Part shown: positions 15,098 through 24,075 of the stretch, in pieces
Layout of the letters: every line of letters begins with the position of its first letter
How positions within the stretch are numbered: the first letter of the stretch is position 1
Assembly: GCA_021297855.1 (NCBI GenBank)
Contig: JAJTHM010000004.1
Span: forward strand, 1-43,142
Source of the DNA: Sphingobacteriales bacterium
Lineage (GTDB): Bacteria > Bacteroidota > Bacteroidia > Chitinophagales > JADJOU01
DNA: 43,142 nt
Reading direction: 5' to 3'
Translations under genes and position numbers: made by a program
Notes under the pieces: generated by a model
Database searches by the model: none
Told to the model about the DNA's origin: nothing
What the model saw: only the letters and a program-made list of their open reading frames with translations

Positions 15098-16408
15098 ATG
15101 GCGAAACAAAACAAAGAACAAAAAGAACCTGCCCGCCTTCCAAAAGCTAAAAAAGAGGTAAGCGAGAAAGCAATTGAAGTTACCCTTTGGGAAGCTGCCA
15201 ATAAACTGAGAGGAAGCGTTGAGCCTGCCGAATACAAACATGTGGTGTTAGGACTGATTTTCTTAAAGTTTGCCAGCGATAAGTTTGAAGAACACCGAGC
15301 CAAACTAATAGCCGAAGGCAAAGAGAAATACCTTGAAATGCCTGAGTTCTACAATATGAACAATGTGTTTTTCTTGGAAGAAACCAGCCGCTGGAGTTAC
15401 CTGATAAAAAGAGCCAAACAAAACGATATTGCTCTGCTCATTGACACAGCCCTGCATACCATAGAGAAAAACAACACAGCCCTGAAAGGTGCTTTGCCCG
15501 ACAATTACTTTTCTCGTTTGGGTTTAGATGTAACCAAACTGGCTTCGCTGCTCGATACCATCAACGACATTGACACCACTAAAGACCCCAAGCAAGATGT
15601 AGTGGGCAAGGTGTATGAATATTTCCTTTCCAAATTTGCATTGGCAGAGGGAAAAGGCAAAGGAGAATTTTACACGCCCAAAAGCATTGTAAACCTCATT
15701 GCTGAAATGATAGAACCTTACAAGGGCATTATCTACGACCCTGCTTGTGGTTCGGGCGGTATGTTTGTGCAGAGTATCAAGTTTATTGAAGCACACCACG
15801 GCAACAAAAAAGAAATTTCCATTTACGGACAGGAATACACCAATACCACCTACAAACTGGCCAAGATGAACCTTGCCATACGGGGCATTAGCGGCAACCT
15901 GGGCGAAAAAGCAGCCGATACCTTTTTAGACGACCAACATAAAGACCTGAAAGCCGATTTTATAATAGCAAACCCACCTTTTAACCAAAAGGACTGGCGT
16001 GCCGAAAATGAATTGATTGACGACCCACGATGGAGAGGTTATGATGTGCCACCCAAAAGCAACGCCAACTATGGTTGGATTTTGAATATGGTTTCTAAAC
16101 TTTCCGACAATGGTATTGCTCGCTTTATATTGGCAAATGGTGCATTAAGTGGCGGTGGCGAAGAATATAAAATACGCAGAAAGCTGATTGAAAATAATTT
16201 GGTGGAAGCCATTTTGGTATTGCCCCGAAACTTGTTTTATACCACCGACATCAGTGTTACACTTTGGATTGTAAACAAAAATAAGAAAGCACAGAGCAAA
16301 AAAGTAGGTGACCAAACACGCAATTACCGTGAGAGAGAAAAAGAGATTTTGTTTATGGACTTGCGACAAATGGGTGAACCATTTGAAAAGAAATACACGC
16401 AATTTTAA
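15098..16408 (+). CDS. hsdM: Type I restriction-modification DNA methyltransferase HsdM, main part (stop before the C-terminal helix region)
   Basis: A 436-residue open frame covering the N-terminal HsdM bundle (VTLWEAANKLRGSVEPAEYK) and the N6-adenine methyltransferase domain. The SAM-binding motif is DPACGSGGMF (about 214-223) and the catalytic motif is IANPPFN (about 290-296). HsdM methylates the recognised DNA with HsdS and is also needed for restriction. The frame ends at TAA (16406-16408) right after KKYTQF. The next codons, still in the same frame, read on into the normal HsdM C-terminus, so this is an in-frame nonsense codon. Codon use is richer in C-ending codons than in the flanking core genes, suggesting transfer. 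Confidence 0.88.
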   Translation: MAKQNKEQKEPARLPKAKKEVSEKAIEVTLWEAANKLRGSVEPAEYKHVVLGLIFLKFASDKFEEHRAKLIAEGKEKYLEMPEFYNMNNVFFLEETSRWSYLIKRAKQNDIALLIDTALHTIEKNNTALKGALPDNYFSRLGLDVTKLASLLDTINDIDTTKDPKQDVVGKVYEYFLSKFALAEGKGKGEFYTPKSIVNLIAEMIEPYKGIIYDPACGSGGMFVQSIKFIEAHHGNKKEISIYGQEYTNTTYKLAKMNLAIRGISGNLGEKAADTFLDDQHKDLKADFIIANPPFNQKDWRAENELIDDPRWRGYDVPPKSNANYGWILNMVSKLSDNGIARFILANGALSGGGEEYKIRRKLIENNLVEAILVLPRNLFYTTDISVTLWIVNKNKKAQSKKVGDQTRNYREREKEILFMDLRQMGEPFEKKYTQF

Positions 16409-16426
16409 GATGATGATATACAAAAA

Positions 16427-16687
16427 GTGGTAAGCACTTACCACCTATGGCAGCAAACTCCCTCTCCCTCGGAGAGGGCTGGGGCGAGGTATGAAAACAT
16501 TCCCGAGTTCTGCTATGCAGCTTCGTTGGATGAAGTAGCCAAAAAAGATTTTTCGTTGGTGCCAAGTAAATACATTGAGTTTGTAAACCGTGACGAGAAC
16601 ATTGACTTTGCGGAGAAAATGCAAAGCCTGAAAACCGAATTTGCCGACTTGCTAAAAGCAGAAAGCCAATCGAAATCTGGTATTTGA
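16427..16687 (+). pseudogene. hsdM: HsdM C-terminal fragment downstream of the nonsense codon
   Basis: It is in the same frame as the upstream hsdM part. From 16409 the sequence reads DDDIQKVVSTYHLWQQ, and after an 11-codon insert YENIPEFCYAASLDEV and DFSLVPSKYIEF, the usual HsdM tail that contacts HsdS. A GTG at 16427 could start a separate 86-residue product. The 3' end is out of frame: the bases at 16680-16707 still encode VFEELGYKI in another frame, so a small deletion has also changed the end. It may be a decayed gene, or a split gene if the GTG is used. Confidence 0.75.
16457..16489. repeat. In-frame palindromic insert inside hsdM
   Basis: A 33-base segment encoding TPSPSERAGAR interrupts the conserved hsdM stretch between YHLWQQ and YENIPEF. 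It contains a perfect 8-bp stem (16460-16467 with 16471-16478) with a three-base loop, followed by a G-rich tail. It keeps the reading frame. It resembles dispersed CCCTCTCC-type palindromes found in coding regions of other bacteria, so it is a probable mobile palindromic element. I cannot count other copies. Confidence 0.7.
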
Positions 16688-16707
16688 AGAGTTGGGTTAT
16701 AAAATCA
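16680..16707 (+). repeat. Upstream copy of the hsdM tail (direct repeat)
   Basis: This 28-base segment encodes VFEELGYKI in a frame other than the hsdM fragment. It matches 17178-17205 with five mismatches. The two copies flank the GxxExxY cassette. Confidence 0.7.
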
Positions 16708-17176
16708 GTCTTGAACCATGATTGTAAAGGATTATTCGATTACTTGATTATGAAACATGAGGATTTAACATATAAAATCACTGGTTGTGCAATGGAAGTT
16801 CATAAGCACCTAGGTAATGGATTTCAGGAAGTGGTGTATCAGAGAGCTTTAGCCATTGAAATGCAGATGCAGGGCATTGAGTTTAGCAGGGAACATGAAA
16901 TGCTTCTACAATATAAGGGTTATGATATCGGCACACGAAGAGTCGATTTTTTTGTTGAAGATAAAATAATGGTAGAAATAAAAGCCATTATTAATCTTGA
17001 AGATGTTCATCTCGCACAAGCAATGAATTATGTGGAAGCATATAACCTTGAAATCGCATTGCTCATAAATTTCGGAGCCAAAAGTTTGCAACACAAACGA
17101 GTTCATAATAACAACCACAAACAATGAACAGAAAAAATCAAGTAATTAAGTTAATCTTGAAAATCAAGGTTCAGAC
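16708..17176 (+). mobile_element. GxxExxY cassette with two nested inverted repeats
   Basis: The outer ends GTCTTGAACCATGATT (16708-16723) and AATCAAGGTTCAGAC (17162-17176) are near-perfect inverted copies, differing by one substitution and one base in length. Inside them is a perfect 11-bp inverted pair, ATTACTTGATT (16739-16749) and AATCAAGTAAT (17136-17146). Between lies one gene of the GxxExxY family. The direct repeats of the hsdM tail lie just outside. The overall picture is a small self-contained unit inserted at the hsdM-hsdS junction. No transposase is inside it, so the mover is unknown. Confidence 0.6.
16750..17127 (+). CDS. GxxExxY family protein (PD-(D/E)XK nuclease-like)
   Basis: A 125-residue protein of the GxxExxY family (TIGR04256), named for its signature, here GFQEVVY. 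The start IIGCAMEVH-type segment (DLTYKITGCAMEVHKHLG), then RRVDFFVEDKIMVEIKAI with the D...ExK residues of a PD-(D/E)XK nuclease fold, match the family well. Nuclease activity is inferred from the fold, not shown. The frame extends to 16684, but the ATG at 16750 gives the family length and start. It sits inside an inverted-repeat cassette between hsdM and hsdS. A truncated relative lies at 33358-33495. Confidence 0.87.
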   Translation: MKHEDLTYKITGCAMEVHKHLGNGFQEVVYQRALAIEMQMQGIEFSREHEMLLQYKGYDIGTRRVDFFVEDKIMVEIKAIINLEDVHLAQAMNYVEAYNLEIALLINFGAKSLQHKRVHNNNHKQ

Positions 17177-17177
17177 A

Positions 17178-17213
17178 ATATTTAAAGAATTGGGATATGA
17201 AATCAAATTATAA
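17178..17213 (+). pseudogene. hsdM: Displaced native end of hsdM, overlapping the hsdS start
   Basis: Read from 17178 the bases encode IFKELGYEIKL and a TAA stop (17211-17213), the canonical C-terminus of this HsdM type. The hsdS ATG at 17197 lies within it in another frame. That overlap is the original hsdM-hsdS junction, now cut off from the hsdM body by the GxxExxY cassette. Confidence 0.75.
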
Positions 17214-18327
17214 ACCCATAGGAAAACATATCAGGCTAGTAGATGAACGCAATAAAGGTTTGCAAGTGCAACAACTTTTGGGGTTAAGCATTTCAAAACA
17301 GTTTATTCCTTCTGTTGCCAACACCATTGGAACAGATATGTCAACTTACAGAATTATTGAAAGAAATCAGTTTGCTTGTAGCACAATGCAGGTAAGGCGT
17401 GATAAAAAAATGCCTGTTGCTTTGTTGAAAGATTTAGATGAAGCGATAATTTCTCAAGCCTATCCAATATTTGAAGTAAAAGACGAAAAAGAACTTTTGC
17501 CCGAATATTTGATGATGTGGTTTGAAAGGTCAGAGTTTGACCGTGAAGCTTGTTTTCACACTGTAGGTGGAGTAAGAGGCAGTTTGGAGTGGGAAGATTT
17601 TGAAAACATGCAACTTCCCATTCCCCCCATAGCCAAACAACGCGAAATCGTAAAAGAATACAACGTCATCCAAAACCGCATAGCCCTCAACCAACAACTC
17701 ATACAAAAACTGGAAGAAACCGCACAGGCGATTTATAGGGAGTGGTTTGTGGAGGTAGGATTTGATGAAACTACTTTTCTAAAAGAATATGTTGAGACAA
17801 ACCCAAGACTTGAACTAAGAAAAGGTAAAATCTCACCCTACGTTGAAATGGCTAATCTTTCAGAAACTTCAATGTGTGTTAATGGAAAAGTAGAAAGGGA
17901 ATATCAAGGCGGTTCTAGATTTCAAAATAATGATACTTTACTAGCACGAATTACACCTTGTCTGGAAAATGGCAAGACAGCATTTGTTAATATCTTAAAG
18001 GAAAAAGAGATAGCTGCCGGCTCAACTGAGTTTATTGTAATGAGGGCAAAGAAAAATATCAGCCCATTTTGGGTTTACTGTTTAGCAAAAGATGAGGGAT
18101 TTCGTGCATACGCAATAAGTAGTATGATTGGTTCTTCTGGCAGACAAAGAGTTCATGAAAAATATCTCGAAGAATATCAATTACCTATAATTGATTACTC
18201 AAAAATGGAAATATTTCATAATACTGCTCTGCCAATTTTTGAATCAGTAAAATTGAAATCTTTAGAAAACCAAAAGCTAAAGGAGCTGAAAGAGATGTTG
18301 CTTTCGAGGTTGGCGACAGTGGTGTAA
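17197..18327 (+). CDS. hsdS: Type I restriction specificity subunit HsdS
   Basis: A 376-residue DNA-recognition subunit. It has two target recognition domains, each followed by a helical spacer. The first runs to about residue 145 and ends in LPIPPIAKQREIVKEYNVIQ, followed by the coiled coil NQQLIQKLEETAQAIYREWF. The second TRD (about 205-345) ends in LPIIDYSKMEIF and a final helix KLKELKEMLLSRLA. It is intact as sequenced and somewhat short of the usual 400 or more residues. Its start overlaps the displaced hsdM end. With hsdM and hsdR broken, it may have no partners. Confidence 0.88.
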   Translation: MKSNYKPIGKHIRLVDERNKGLQVQQLLGLSISKQFIPSVANTIGTDMSTYRIIERNQFACSTMQVRRDKKMPVALLKDLDEAIISQAYPIFEVKDEKELLPEYLMMWFERSEFDREACFHTVGGVRGSLEWEDFENMQLPIPPIAKQREIVKEYNVIQNRIALNQQLIQKLEETAQAIYREWFVEVGFDETTFLKEYVETNPRLELRKGKISPYVEMANLSETSMCVNGKVEREYQGGSRFQNNDTLLARITPCLENGKTAFVNILKEKEIAAGSTEFIVMRAKKNISPFWVYCLAKDEGFRAYAISSMIGSSGRQRVHEKYLEEYQLPIIDYSKMEIFHNTALPIFESVKLKSLENQKLKELKEMLLSRLATVV

Positions 18328-18354
18328 TGGTTAATGATAAATTATTAAAGGTTA

Positions 18355-18915
18355 ATGAATAAATATAACCCCCATATCCACCACCGCAGGTCTATCCGAT
18401 TAAAAGGATACGATTATTCGCAGGCGGGATTGTATTTTATTGCCATTTGTTGTCAGGATAGGGCGTGTTTGTTTGGGGATGTGGTGAATGGGGAAATGAT
18501 ATTGAACGAATTTGGAATAGTGGCACATAACGAATGGGCGAAAACCCCAGAAATACGACCAAATGTCGAATTGGGTGAATTCATCATAATGCCCAACCAT
18601 ATGCACGGCATCATCCGGTTATTGGGTAGGGGCGAATTGCATTCGCCCGAAATGACAAACCAATTGCATTCGTTCGATAATTTGGGCGTTTGCAAAACGC
18701 CCCTACGGTCACCGTCACAAACGATTGGGGCCATTGTTCGTGGTTACAAATCAACGGTTACCAAACAATTGGGATTATTGGGTTTTGATGACAAATTATG
18801 GCAACGCAATTATCATGAACACATAATTCGTAACGAACAATCGTATCAAACCATATCGGAATACATAATAAACAATCCTGTAAAATGGGCAGAGGATAAA
18901 TTTTATCTCGCATGA
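18355..18915 (+). CDS. REP-associated tyrosine transposase (RAYT, Y1 family)
   Basis: A 186-residue single-strand transposase of the IS200-like REP-associated group. The metal-binding HxH pair is in MPNHMHGIIRL and the presumed catalytic tyrosine in IVRGYKSTV. The C-terminal KLWQRNYHEHIIRNEQSY and INNPVKWAEDKFYL are family marks. RAYTs move or maintain REP palindromes with a GTAG head. Between the HMH motif and the tyrosine this protein has an extra segment of about 30 residues, encoded by two opposed GTAG palindromes. It lies between hsdS and hsdR; its TGA overlaps, as ATGA, the first base triplet of a truncated hsdR copy. Confidence 0.88.
   Translation: MNKYNPHIHHRRSIRLKGYDYSQAGLYFIAICCQDRACLFGDVVNGEMILNEFGIVAHNEWAKTPEIRPNVELGEFIIMPNHMHGIIRLLGRGELHSPEMTNQLHSFDNLGVCKTPLRSPSQTIGAIVRGYKSTVTKQLGLLGFDDKLWQRNYHEHIIRNEQSYQTISEYIINNPVKWAEDKFYLA
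18626..18648 (+). repeat. GTAG-headed palindrome inside the RAYT gene, forward copy
   Basis: GTAG (18626-18629) followed by a perfect 8-bp stem GGGCGAAT/ATTCGCCC with a TGC loop. This is the classic REP layout. A partly decayed direct copy of the same stem follows around 18661-18677. Confidence 0.85.
18684..18706 (-). repeat. GTAG-headed palindrome inside the RAYT gene, inverted copy
   Basis: On the minus strand it reads GTAG followed by a perfect 8-bp stem GGGCGTTT/AAACGCCC with a TGC loop. It faces the copy at 18626-18648, giving the head-out pair typical of REP doublets, here within a reading frame. Confidence 0.85.
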
Positions 18916-18986
18916 AATTCACCGAAGAAAAATTAGAAAAGGCATTTACCGAATTGCTGGGGCAAGAAACATTAAATAGAAGCTAG
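18912..18986 (+). pseudogene. hsdR: Truncated duplicate of the hsdR start
   Basis: The first 19 codons (MKFTEEKLEKAFTELLGQE) are identical in protein to the full hsdR start at 20867, with four silent base differences in 57. After GQE the sequence diverges (TLNRS, then stop). The ATG overlaps the RAYT stop. It marks where hsdR once began directly behind RAYT, before the AbiE module and a second hsdR start were placed downstream. It is too short to be functional. Confidence 0.85.
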
Positions 18987-19095
18987 GGATAGTAGTTTGG
19001 ACTACAGTAATTAAAATATAAAACCTTGTGCTACCAGAACGCAAGCAGAATGCAGTAAGTTCCATATATTTATCCACAGACTAAATAAGTGTGTA

Positions 19096-19129
19096 TTTGT
19101 CCAGTTTTTTTGATAATAAACTGGACAAA
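19096..19129. promoter_or_regulatory. Operator-like inverted repeat upstream of abiEi
   Basis: A perfect 12-bp inverted repeat, TTTGTCCAGTTT and AAACTGGACAAA, separated by ten bases. It covers the likely -33 region of the abiE promoter. AbiEi antitoxins are known to bind inverted repeats and repress their own operon, so this is a likely autoregulatory site. Confidence 0.7.
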
Positions 19130-19134
19130 AGTTT

Positions 19135-19142
19135 TATATTTG
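19135..19142 (+). promoter_or_regulatory. -7 promoter box of the abiE operon
   Basis: TATATTTG, an exact TAnnTTTG box, 16 bases before the abiEi ATG. A TTTG at 19109-19112, inside the inverted repeat, could be the -33 element at 22-base spacing. Confidence 0.65.
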
Positions 19143-19158
19143 CACATAGAATTATAGA

Positions 19159-19884
19159 ATGAAAATATCTGAATACATGGCATTTACCATAGATAGGCTA
19201 CCCAAGGGCTATGTATTCACCTATGCCGACTTTACTACAGAGGTGAACCAAAAAGAAGCGGTCATAAAAGCCCTGAACCGTATGGTAGCTTCGGGTAAGA
19301 TTGCCAAACTGTCTAAAGGTAAATATTACAAACCCGAAAATACGCCCTTTGGCAACCTTCAACCCAATCAGGCACAAGTAGTAAAAGATTTGTTGGAAGA
19401 AAACGGAAAAATAACTGGCTATCTCACAGGATACAGCATTTACAACCAATTGGGCTTAACCACTCAGGTGAGCAATACGATACAAATAGGTAAAAATCAG
19501 GTTCGCCCCAATTTTAAAAGAGAACGTTATACGATAGCTTTTATAAAGCAAAAAAATACCATTACCAAAGAGAACATTCCTTTATTGCAATTATTGGACG
19601 CCATTCGCTATATCAAAAAAATACCAGATGCCAATATAGAAGCATCTTGTAAGCGGTTTTTGGCAATCATACAAAACTTTACAGACAAAGAAATCAATAC
19701 ACTGGTTCGCCTGGCTCTGAAATATCCGCCAGCTACAAGGGCGTTGTTAGGGGCTTTGTTAGAGCAATTGCAGCAAGACAAAGCATCAGAACCGCTTTTC
19801 AAGTCATTGAATCCCATTACCAAGTATAAACTATCAGGTGCAGCGAAAGCATTGTCCATCACCGAAAAATGGAATATTATATGA
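19159..19884 (+). CDS. AbiEi-type antitoxin (DUF6088 family)
   Basis: A 241-residue antitoxin of the type IV AbiE system. The N-terminal winged helix (about 1-75) contains IDRLPKGYVFTYADF and ALNRMVASGKIAKLSKGKYYKP, typical of AbiEi DNA-binding domains. The larger C-terminal part carries TGYSIYNQLGLTTQVSNTIQI, as in DUF6088 proteins. It would repress its own operon through the inverted repeat upstream and counter the toxin encoded next. Its TGA overlaps the abiEii start as ATGA. Confidence 0.88.
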   Translation: MKISEYMAFTIDRLPKGYVFTYADFTTEVNQKEAVIKALNRMVASGKIAKLSKGKYYKPENTPFGNLQPNQAQVVKDLLEENGKITGYLTGYSIYNQLGLTTQVSNTIQIGKNQVRPNFKRERYTIAFIKQKNTITKENIPLLQLLDAIRYIKKIPDANIEASCKRFLAIIQNFTDKEINTLVRLALKYPPATRALLGALLEQLQQDKASEPLFKSLNPITKYKLSGAAKALSITEKWNII

Positions 19885-20867
19885 AGTTGCACGAAAATAA
19901 AACCTTATTCAGACAAGCGGTACAGTTTACATCTGACCAAATGAAAATCCCTGCCATTTATATAGAAAAAGACTATTGGGTGACTTACGCTTTGTATACC
20001 ATCTTCAATAACGAGATTGGTAAAGAATCAGTATTTAAGGGGGGAACAGCGCTATCCAAGTGCTACCATATGATTGAACGCTTTTCAGAAGACATTGATT
20101 TAGTCGTATTGAGGCGTGAAGGAGAATCAAACAGTAGACTTACGAAAAAGATCCAAACGATCAGCGAAGTAGTAAAGAGCATTCTACCAGAAATCATTAT
20201 CGATGGTCTAACCCAAAAAATGGGGATGAACCGAAAAACGGCCCACTCTTACAGCAAAGAATTTAGCGGTGATTATGGACAAGTAAGAGATGCCATTGTA
20301 GTAGAAGCTACTTGGCTTGGCTATTTTGAACCCTATACCACCAAGAGTATCATTTCATTTGTTGGTCAAATGATGATGGATAATGGTCAACAAGATTTAG
20401 CGGAATCAAATGGATTATTACCATTTGAGCTATTGGTTTTAGAACCCACAAGAACAATCTGCGAAAAAATAATGAGCCTTGTTCGATTTTCTTATGACGA
20501 TAATCCACTAGAGGTTTTAAGGAATAAAGTCAGACATACATATGACTTGTATCAATTACTAAAGTATAAAGGGTTTTCTGAATTTCTTAACTCCGAAGCC
20601 TTTTCGAAAATGCTATTAAAAGTAGCTAATGATGATGTTGCTAGCTATAAGAATACTAATAAATGGCTAATAAATCACCCAAATGAGGCACTTATTTTCA
20701 AAGACTTGGAAAATGTATGGAATGAGTTAAAACCAGTTTATAACGGTGCGTTTAAAAACTTGGTGTATGGAGAATTGCCAAAAGATGAAGCCGTTTTAGA
20801 AACTTTAAAAATGATTCAAGAAAGATTAAAAAGAATTTCTTGGACAATAAAAATTGAAACCAAGTAA
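19881..20867 (+). CDS. AbiEii/AbiGii-type nucleotidyltransferase toxin
   Basis: A 328-residue toxin with the nucleotidyltransferase signature FKGGTALSKCYHMIERFSED followed by IDLVV, giving the GG...DxD catalytic pattern. This family halts growth by modifying RNA (tRNA 3' ends in studied relatives) when phage infection disturbs antitoxin control. The frame allows an ATG at 19869, but the ATG at 19881 makes a four-base overlap with abiEi and gives the normal start MKLHENKTLFRQAVQ. Its TAA overlaps the hsdR ATG by one base (TAATG). It is intact as sequenced. Confidence 0.9.
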   Translation: MKLHENKTLFRQAVQFTSDQMKIPAIYIEKDYWVTYALYTIFNNEIGKESVFKGGTALSKCYHMIERFSEDIDLVVLRREGESNSRLTKKIQTISEVVKSILPEIIIDGLTQKMGMNRKTAHSYSKEFSGDYGQVRDAIVVEATWLGYFEPYTTKSIISFVGQMMMDNGQQDLAESNGLLPFELLVLEPTRTICEKIMSLVRFSYDDNPLEVLRNKVRHTYDLYQLLKYKGFSEFLNSEAFSKMLLKVANDDVASYKNTNKWLINHPNEALIFKDLENVWNELKPVYNGAFKNLVYGELPKDEAVLETLKMIQERLKRISWTIKIETK

Positions 20868-21706
20868 TGAAATTCACCGAAGAAAAATTAGAAAAAGCGT
20901 TTACTGAGTTGCTGGGGCAAGAAGGCTTTCCCCATCATTTGGGCATTACGATAACTCGTAAGCCTGAAGAAGTATTGATTGAAGAAGATTTACAAACCTT
21001 TCTTTTAACACAATACGCTGGCCAAGGCATTACAGTGAATGAAACCAAATCTATTATTCTTCAGCTCAAATCGCTTTCAGCATCTGACCTTTATGAAAGC
21101 AATAAAACATTTTTAAAACAACTTTCAGATGGCTTTATTCTCAAAAGAGAAGACCGCAACCAAAAGGACATTTACATTCAACTTATCAATTATGCAGGAT
21201 TAAATAAACACCGCCAACCAGAAGTAGACCAGTTAATTTCTATTGCAGCCGAACCCGAAGAAGTTTATCCAGCCGATAATAACATTTACAAATTTGTAAA
21301 CCAATTAGAAATTATTGGTCCAGAAAAACGCATTCCTGACGGTATTGTTTATATCAATGGTCTGCCTTTGGTGGTATTTGAATTCAAATCAGCCATTCGT
21401 GAAGAAGCTACCATTTATGATGCTTACAAGCAATTAACGGTTCGTTACCGCAGAGACATTCCCGAACTGTTTAAATACAATGCTTTTTGTGTCATCAGCG
21501 ATGGCGTAAACAACAAGTCAGGTTCATTCTTTGCCCCATATGATTTTTTCTATGCTTGGCGCAGAGTGGCGGGTTGGCAAAAGATGTGGATGGCATTGAC
21601 AGTATGTTTACACTCATACAAGGAATGTTTCACAAAAACCGTTTGCGTGATATTATTCGCAACTTCATTTACATTCCTGACAGCTCAAAAAAGAATGAGA
21701 AAATAG
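20867..21706 (+). pseudogene. hsdR: Type I restriction endonuclease HsdR, 5' part with nuclease domain (frameshifted)
   Basis: A 279-codon frame whose first 235 or so residues are genuine HsdR. The PD-(D/E)XK nuclease core is visible as RIPDGIVYINGLPLVVFEFK (D158, E172, K174). It also has the family sequence APYDFFYAWRRV. At about 21574 the bases GGTTGG replace an expected GGTTTGG, and the frame runs into 40 unrelated residues before stopping at 21706. The proper sequence resumes at once in the next frame. One base is missing; a sequencing error cannot be excluded. Confidence 0.85.
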
Positions 21707-24075
21707 TTTGTCGCTATCCGCAATACTATGCTGCACGGGCATTGTACGACAATATCAAGAAAGCCCAAAAGCCCGAAGGAAACGGAAAAGGCGGAACATA
21801 CTTTGGTGCCACAGGTTGCGGAAAGAGTTTTACAATGCTTTATCTGACAAGGTTGTTGATGAAAAGTGAATACTTTGAAAGCCCGACCATTGTATTGATA
21901 ACCGACCGAACCGATTTAGACGACCAACTTTCGGGACAATTTACGAATGCCAAAAATTTTATTGGCGACAATACTGTTGTGAGTGTTGGGAGCAGAGCCA
22001 ACCTAAGAGAATTAATTCAAGGCAGACAAAGCGGAGGTGTTTTCTTAACCACCATTCACAAGTTTACAGAAGATACTGAATTGCTCACCGACAGAACCAA
22101 TGTCATTTGTATTTCGGACGAAGCACACAGAAGTCAAGTAAACCTTGACCAAAAAGTAAAAGTGACCGAAAAAGGAGTTACTAAAATATACGGCTTTGCA
22201 AAATATTTACATGATTCCTTACCCAATGCCACATTTGTTGGTTTTACAGGAACACCCATAGATGCAACACTTGATGTGTTTGGAAAAGTGGTTGATGCAT
22301 ACACAATGACGGAATCCGTGAAAGATGAAATCACGGTTAGAATTGTGTATGAAGGCAGAGCAGCAAAAGTGTTATTGAATAATTCAAAACTCAAAGAGAT
22401 TGAAGATTATTATGCTAAGTGTGCCGAGATTGGAAGTAATGAAAATCAGATTGAACAAAGTAAGAAGGAAATGGCACAGATGTACGCCATTATTGGAGAC
22501 CCTGAACGTTTAAAAGCCGTTGCAGAAGATTTTGTAAATCATTATGAGAATAGAGTTTCGGAAGGTTCGACAGTAAAAGGCAAAGCAATGTTTGTGTGCA
22601 GCACTCGTGAAATAGCTTATGAGTTGTATAAAAACATCATCGCACTAAAACCTGAATGGAACGAAATACGAGCAGCCGAAGAAGGTGCAGAACTCACCGA
22701 CAAAGATAAACGGGAACTGAAACCAATTGAACGAATCAAACTCATTGCCACCAGAGGACAGGATGATCCGAAGGAAATGTATGATCTGTTAGGAACAAAA
22801 GACCAACGTAAAGAATTGGATAGACAATTCAAAAACGAAAAATCGAATTTCAAAATCGCTATTGTAGTTGATATGTGGCTCACTGGTTTTGATGTGCCTT
22901 TCTTGGATAGCATATATATTGACAAACCAATTCAGCGACACAATTTAATTCAAACCATATCAAGAGTAAACCGCAAATTTGAAGGAAAAAATAAATGTCT
23001 GGTAGTGGATTATATCGGCATCAAAACACAAATGAATTTAGCGTTGAAGCAATACAGCGAAGGCGACAAAGACAATTTTGAAGACATTGCTGAATCCATC
23101 ATCATTGTAAGAAATCATTTAGACCTTTTGGCTAAACTGTTTCACACGTTTGACAATTCAAAATATTTCAAAGGCACAACCCTTCAGCAATTGAACACGT
23201 TGAATTTAGCTGCCGAATATGTGCAACAAAGTAAAGAGTTTGAAACCCGATTTATGGGTTTGGTAAAGCGACTAAAAGCCGCTTATGATATCTGTGCAGG
23301 AAGCGAACAATTAACGCAGTTAGAAAGAGATTACACACACTTCTATTTGGCAGTTCGTTCCATAGTTTTCAAACTCACCAAAGGCAATGCACCCGACACC
23401 GCGCAGATGAATGCCAAAGTGCGGGAAATGATAAAAGAAGCCTTGCAAAGTGATGGTGTAGAAGAAATATTCAAGCTCGGAGACGAAGCAGAAACCGAAC
23501 AAGACATTTTTGATGAAGATTATTTAGCGAAGATTGATAAAATCAAATTGCCGAATACCAAAATCAAATTGCTTCAACAGTTACTTGCAAAAGTAATTAG
23601 TGAAATCAGAAAAGTAAACCGAGTAAAAGGAATTGACTTTACTAAAAAAATGCAAGCCTTGGTTGAACGCTACAATGAGAGAAAAGAGGATGTGTTAGTA
23701 GGTCAGGTTTTGGAAGATTTTGCAGAAGAGATTACAAAATTAATTTTAGAAGTTCACAAAGAGTTTTCGGCAGGTGATGCTTTGGGAATTGACTTTGAAG
23801 AAAAAGCATTTTACGACATCTTGAAAGAGCTGTGCGTAAAATATGACTTCAAATATCCTGACGAAAAAATGATTGAATTGGCAAAAGCCGTGAAAGACTT
23901 GGTTGACGGACAAGCCAAATTCCCTGACTGGAACAAACGTGACGACATAAAATCAGCTTTAAAAGTTGGACTTATTCTCTTGCTAGACGAGTTTGGTTAT
24001 CCCCCTGTAGAGAGAGACGAAGTGTATGTAGAGATATTTGAGCAGGCTGAGAATTTTAAGAAAAATCAGAGTTAA
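21556..24075 (+). pseudogene. hsdR: Type I restriction endonuclease HsdR, 3' part with translocase domains (frameshifted)
   Basis: True HsdR sequence begins about 21574 with GLAKDVDGIDSMFTL and continues to 24075. It holds the ATP-dependent translocase: Walker A FGATGCGKSF, DEAH box CISDEAHRSQ, motif III FVGFTGTPI, motif VI QTISRVNRKFEGK, and a helical C-terminus that joins the methylase core. HsdR pumps DNA and cuts at a distance. The frame opens with TTG at 21556; an internal ATG at 21604 could allow separate translation, but split from the nuclease part it is unlikely to restrict. Confidence 0.88.

Follow-up and report, generated by a model that had tools for sequence, protein, structure and literature searches.

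The window analysed here is a 43,142-nt stretch (positions 1 to 43,142) of contig JAJTHM010000004.1 from a Sphingobacteriales bacterium (assembly GCA_021297855.1). It carries a type I restriction–modification (R-M) operon in which hsdM, hsdS and hsdR follow one another with defence genes between them, as assigned by Pfam, PADLOC and gene maps. The element in question is a second, truncated copy of the hsdR start, which lies upstream of the gene. The direct repeat pairs 18912–18968 with hsdR nt 1–57 (20867–20923), and the copies match exactly except for four mismatches at hsdR nt 30, 33, 39 and 42, all of which are silent third-codon-position changes, such that the peptide MKFTEEKLEKAFTELLGQE is encoded identically by both. 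The similarity ends at hsdR nt 57, and none is present 5' of the ATG. A first-pass annotation had described this repeat in the same terms, and our repeat comparison agrees with it. The upstream copy, hereafter the stub (18912..18968; like the other features given below, on the forward strand), opens a short open reading frame (ORF) of 24 aa (18912..18986) consisting of MKFTEEKLEKAFTELLGQE, five unrelated codons and TAG. Its ATG overlaps the stop codon of a preceding gene for a REP-associated (RAYT-like) transposase (18355..18915) by 4 nt (GCATGA), a neighbour that the first-pass annotation did not mention and whose family was named from sequence, with no Pfam model reaching threshold. The second copy is preceded by abiEii, whose stop overlaps the hsdR ATG by 1 nt (TAATG). 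The repeat is far beyond chance, because a degenerate 27-nt hsdR-start pattern matches only four times in 395 Bacteroidota genomes, and two of these matches are the window copies.

The AbiE module does lie between the copies, although not exactly as had been claimed, since the abiEi ATG is 190 nt past the stub end, with a 172-nt gap after the stub ORF. AbiEi, the antitoxin/repressor (DUF6088; 19159..19884; Pfam PF19570; PADLOC AbiEi, 2.4e-59), and AbiEii, the nucleotidyltransferase toxin (19869..20867; Pfam PF08843; PADLOC AbiEii, 9.4e-104), are encoded adjacently in one operon. The left junction is followed by a 127-nt spacer (18969..19095), for which a search for relatives returned none; only the palindrome 3' of it, TTTGTCCAGTTT...AAACTGGACAAA (19096..19129), has matches and is kept before abiEi in relatives. 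The same holds for a Bacteroidota-type -7 box, TATATTTG (19135-19142), which is also present before abiEi in relatives. The palindrome is probably the AbiEi operator, and together with the TATATTTG box it probably forms the abiE promoter/operator. Two palindrome classes, TGTCCAG..CTGGACA and TGTCAAG..CTTGACA, occur before abiEi in the window and in loci L016, L025, L042, L052 and others; they seem to correspond to two groups of AbiEi sequences, which suggests two operator specificities.

The stub is not peculiar to the window. Our sample comprised 80 loci, the window included, that encode relatives of the HsdR N-terminus and have enough upstream sequence; the E-values and counts rest on related loci. 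When full-length hsdR was compared with its own surroundings by BLAST, 34 repeats were found, all of them upstream and co-oriented and none downstream, and 29 of the 34 begin at hsdR nt 1–4. Likewise, a scan with the first 26 nt, allowing up to 5 mismatches, gave 34 upstream hits on the same strand and no inverted or downstream hits in 559 kb of upstream and 610 kb of downstream sequence. The census, a gapped alignment against several hsdR alleles, produced 42 candidates in 29 loci; after 4 weak or ambiguous ones were dropped, 38 stubs remained in 28 of the 80 loci, with scores of at least 42 versus a shuffled maximum of 41. All 38 are upstream, on the same strand and begin at or within 4 nt of the position equivalent to the hsdR ATG, and none is downstream or inverted. 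In a search for all repeats, hsdR-start repeats were the commonest class common to several loci. Stub length ranges from ~26 to ~125 nt, the end position varies widely among loci, and divergence from hsdR is mostly 4–20%. A protein search for longer stubs found none past hsdR residue ~42, save for an internal piece (residues 98–128) in L047. Like a real hsdR start, the stub ATG usually shares 4 or 1 nt with the stop codon of the module before it.

Stubs also accompany other hsdR types. Among 40 further Bacteroidota loci, upstream co-oriented stubs of ~49–108 nt are present in L140, L147, L149/L150 (one event), L159 and L169, and the finished Chryseobacterium plasmid NZ_CP041688 carries a 90-nt, 91% stub that is annotated within a hypothetical protein. 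No stubs were found in the gammaproteobacterial and cyanobacterial plasmid loci L099, L100 and L102–L104, five loci being too few to judge, and a search of viral contigs (IMG/VR) for the stub pattern gave no hit.

Between hsdS and hsdR lie 0 to 7 genes, and this cargo, named from profile hits (Pfam, PADLOC), includes defence modules: Gabija GajA/GajB, SIR2-HerA, Thoeris-like TIR, RhuM (PDC-S05), GmrSD and AbiE, as well as PrrC-like AAA_13 proteins (PDC-S06), Tmn and AbiL-like proteins. The abiE-hsdR order, which was to be looked for elsewhere, is common (L016, L025, L050, L053, L054, L066, L082 and others). Both empty and filled sites exist for the same upstream module. The transposase gene runs straight onto an intact hsdR in L026, L038, L021 and L043 and is followed by a stub in the window, L041, L029, L022 and L034; similarly, Gabija is joined to an intact hsdR in L076 and is followed by a stub and other cargo in L032, L049 and L061. 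Two side observations concern this cargo. In L044 (8290-10004), RhuM stands in place of abiEii right after abiEi, the replacement falling where abiEii would have its start codon. L053, L054 and L066 share a 6.2-kb abiE-hsdR block at ~98% identity, and their bins carry the labels of different Bacteroidota groups; this implies either recent transfer or bin contamination.

Comparing stubs with hsdR genes, it becomes clear that the two are separate alleles. Over all stubs, 108 of 165 mismatches fall on third codon positions (binomial p 4e-17 against one third, uncorrected for shared ancestry). The L034 stub matches the L014 hsdR at 108/110 positions versus 90/110 for its own hsdR, and the L067 stub matches the L014 allele at 108/120 versus 87/120 for its own (bootstrap 1.000 in both cases). 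The L041 and L057 stubs also match the hsdR of other loci better than their own, the latter being closer to another hsdR subfamily, and the window stub is matched at 56/57 by L060 and at 53/57 by its own hsdR. These third-position mismatches and the stubs nearer to foreign alleles together indicate that the copies are alleles and not a fresh duplication, as the first-pass annotation had argued. The different allelic origins of stub and hsdR mean that the start of hsdR is exchanged when cargo comes in.

The same comparisons speak against a simple scenario in which the hsdR 5' end was duplicated in tandem and abiE then inserted between the two copies. Such a history would give the same layout, and it fits L040, which alone has the look of a genuine recent duplication, with a 160-nt, 97.5% direct repeat flanking its cargo. 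However, duplicated copies should be closest to each other, and in the window, L034, L067, L041 and L057 they are not; the window copies differ by four silent changes and nothing else, other stubs lie nearer to foreign alleles or subfamilies than to their own hsdR, and empty sites with the same upstream module exist. In L041 and L029, which share the transposase-stub-abiE-hsdR order of the window, stub and hsdR are not the identical copies that would point to duplication but match at 24/33 and 27/33. We therefore consider tandem duplication very unlikely. Site-specific integration, with the hsdR start serving as attachment core or target duplication, would account for the constant gene start and orientation. 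It is at odds with stub lengths of 26 to ~125 nt, which vary even after one module (29, 61 and ~122 nt after Gabija), with the divergence of the copies, and with the lack of a recombinase common to the cargo: none was found in the inserted segments among abiE, RhuM, AlbA_2, Gabija and other scanned cargo, the transposase gene was found in 16 loci only, and in the window it lies outside the abiE segment. This explanation is highly improbable. We rejected a fresh target-site duplication because of the variable lengths and the allelic divergence in place of fixed-length, near-identical repeats, and a site-specific recombinase because none is common to the cassettes and the junctions vary.

The reading that we favour, at a probability of roughly 0.7, is that a stub represents what remained of the preceding hsdR, namely its 5' end, after import of a segment consisting of cargo and a new hsdR 5' end, and that this process is recurrent; the window stub would accordingly be the remnant of an earlier hsdR. 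The older window locus would have read hsdM-hsdS-transposase-hsdR, its transposase gene being the cargo module then in front of hsdR. An incoming segment from another hsd locus, carrying abiE and its own hsdR 5' end, would have recombined on the right side by ordinary homologous recombination within hsdR and on the left side by a short-homology or illegitimate join ~57 nt past the resident hsdR ATG. The resident hsdR start would thus stay as the stub, and the cargo would then supply a new full hsdR start. The first-pass annotation had proposed import of the AbiE-hsdR segment by recombination at the hsdR start. The import is largely borne out, with two changes: it is recurrent (28 of 80 loci), and no single donor emerges, abiE and hsdR being mosaic. 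As for the site, the left join would lie inside hsdR, because the old 5' end was kept as the stub.

Several junctions are in line with such an import. In L027, hsdR nt ~56 is joined directly to a copy of an hsdS 3' end, so the incoming DNA there would have come from another hsd locus, beginning inside its hsdS. L016 and L052/L055 have in common a junction of hsdR nt 57 with TAAATGTCAAG (one base different in L055) and the closest AbiEi, and their upstream modules and stub alleles differ. This is as expected if an existing cassette of stub and abiE spreads by recombination within the stub, which could act as the left homology arm among hsd loci. Mirror images occur as well: in L046 and L083, modules are followed by a second copy of an hsdS 3' end, and at hsdM the 3' end is duplicated past a GxxExxY gene in the window and L041. 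The stubs and these mirror duplications would alike be explained by homology on one side and an illegitimate or short-homology join on the other.

The closest relatives differ from gene to gene in the window, as had been predicted for import: L022/L018 for hsdM, L018 for hsdS, L025 for abiEi, L016 for abiEii and L014/L015/L033 for hsdR. Judged from these alignments, the window abiE and hsdR appear to be mosaics of different relatives, and no single donor strain can therefore be named. The first ~450 nt of the window hsdR are 88-91% like L014 and mostly 76-81% like L041 and L042, whereas the rest is mostly 80-93% like all three. This block structure is consistent with a crossover inside hsdR, and faster evolution of the first ~450 nt in some lineages is also possible. 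These blocks bear on a competing idea, in which circular cassettes, excised between two hsdR starts and made up of cargo plus a short piece of the hsdR 5' end, integrate into any hsdR start by a single RecA-dependent, Campbell-like crossover that leaves direct repeats on either side. Circles would yield the same stub-cargo-hsdR order without an illegitimate join, and the direct repeat around the L040 cargo and the common nt-57 junctions would suit them. However, they predict that hsdR past the stub length is still the resident one, and the first ~450 nt of the window gene resemble a different allele from the remainder (81, 77 and 81% versus mostly 84-92%, against L041); moreover, the stub pattern is absent from the viral contigs and no free circle was seen. 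We regard circles as rather unlikely. As a separate observation on hsdR, an insertion of ~600 nt inside the gene (about nt 1777-2474) is present in L029, L034, L049, L052, L055, L057, L060, L061, L088 and L091, and near residues 719-814 the L060 and L091 products weakly resemble the C terminus of REP-type transposases.

In the import reading, each repeat event would add one cargo module, always at the hsdR start; the newest module would therefore stand beside hsdR, and stubs would mark older boundaries. L042 and L091 have three stubs each. The L042 order, AAA_13 gene-stub-AlbA_2-stub-RhuM-stub-abiE-hsdR, points to growth at the hsdR end. The abiE-hsdR part of L082/L084 aligns with L091 at 90%, through abiE and hsdR nt 26, beyond which L091 continues with a degraded AlbA_2 gene, then a stub of 58 nt, and finally RhuM and hsdR. 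L015 and L016 have DUF1016 and its stub in common (92% upstream), and L055 and L057 a RhuM remnant and its stub (91% upstream), with different cargo after the stub in both pairs. We tentatively extend this to a view that we hold to be doubtful, namely that the first ~125 nt of hsdR serve as a portable docking arm, and that recombinase-free cassettes of hsdR stub and cargo circulate in Bacteroidota, insert only at hsdR starts and stack like gene-cassette arrays, with the stubs recording arrival order.

Several points weigh against the import reading. First, the stubs measure ~26 to 125 nt, much less than breakpoints placed at random along the 3.2-kb hsdR would leave, and the simple import model does not explain the ~125-nt ceiling; possible causes are that longer HsdR fragments are selected against, that short leader ORFs are required, or that the stubs descend from few founding junctions. 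Second, abiE directly follows hsdS without a stub in L025, L051 and L059, so not every cargo gain leaves a stub, or older stubs may have decayed; the Emticicia plasmid pEMTOL03 likewise has the hsdS-abiE-hsdR order without a stub, and its hsdR is internally deleted. Third, no donor and recipient strain pair separated by a single event was found that would fix the crossover, and the recombination steps are thus inferred; hsdR homology runs over 3.2 kb in mosaic allele blocks. In addition, a stub of 57 nt is too short to reveal which allele was the donor in the window, related loci do not give independent mismatch counts, and many sampled loci are metagenome bins; the isolates L052, L055, L057 and L061 and a finished plasmid show stubs too.

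The short stubs would also be accounted for if they were kept for function, the stub preserving the ribosome entry point of hsdR and its short leader ORF coupling translation of the next module. In promoter-less modules, the stop of the stub ORF is indeed often at or close to the next start (-4, 0, 1, 3 and 6 nt). However, abiE cassettes, including that of the window, have their own probable promoter and, in the window, a 172-nt gap, and ATGA overlaps arise by chance in one of three frames. Such a function is an unlikely explanation of the stubs in itself, and it could act alongside import, not replace it.

Two genes of the window R-M operon appear broken. The current hsdR (20867..24075) is split into ORFs 20867-21706 and 21556-24075, as a 1-nt deletion near 21570 breaks its frame in comparison with relatives, and hsdM (15098..16687) has an in-frame TAA at 16406-16408 and an altered 3' end. 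With these two lesions, the R-M system may no longer function, abiE being intact; the breaks may be real decay or draft-assembly errors. The specificity gene hsdS (17197..18327) was assigned by Pfam/PADLOC. A GxxExxY/PDDEXK_3 gene (16684..17127) is inserted between hsdM and hsdS, and the hsdM 3' end (16680-16707) has a diverged copy past it at 17178-17205, an arrangement that L041 shares. This gene is also flanked by a 38-nt inverted repeat (16712-16749 / 17136-17173). Tandem heptamer-like repeats (TTAATGG/AACCATT) adjoin cargo genes in L049, L029, L041 and the window (18325-18366).

The presence of defence systems within type I R-M operons is already known, and the stubs bear on how they arrive. 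As physical scars, they allow the arrivals to be put in order and show that hsdR is exchanged along with the cargo; defence genes appear to accumulate in restriction operons one after another at the hsdR start. A search for stubs offers a way to find newly embedded defence genes, as whatever lies between a stub and the true hsdR, and makes the long-standing question of how defence islands grow testable through strain comparison and transformation experiments. Our literature search, in open-licence papers only, found no description of hsdR-start stubs.

Among known systems, the window AbiE resembles type IV toxin–antitoxin pairs in its AbiEi (DUF6088) and AbiEii nucleotidyltransferase, its overlapping genes and its palindromic promoter region; its proteins look like ordinary family members, and the only unusual trait appears to be the place of the module as hsdR-linked cargo. 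In the RptR island of enteropathogenic Escherichia coli (EPEC), DarTG2 lies between hsdS and hsdR, and the site has been called a potential recombination hotspot (PMC12255303). Defence modules likewise occupy this position in our loci; in the passages of that paper available to us, neither a duplicated hsdR start or stub nor any polarity or allele replacement is mentioned, whereas window-type loci carry scars of stepwise addition at the hsdR ATG. The TgvAB genes lie inside a type I R-M cluster on VPI-2 of Vibrio cholerae (PMC11411939), likewise a second defence system nested in such an operon, in another phylum and with the insertion mechanism not addressed in the passages available. A mechanistic parallel is homology-facilitated illegitimate recombination, in which one end joins by homology and the other illegitimately, trapping foreign DNA by a conserved gene (PMC3240628 and references therein). 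That process is known from laboratory transformation and conjugation, whereas here it is deduced from natural scars, and the hsdR stubs differ from it in being repeated at one gene start and in the limit on their left breakpoint.

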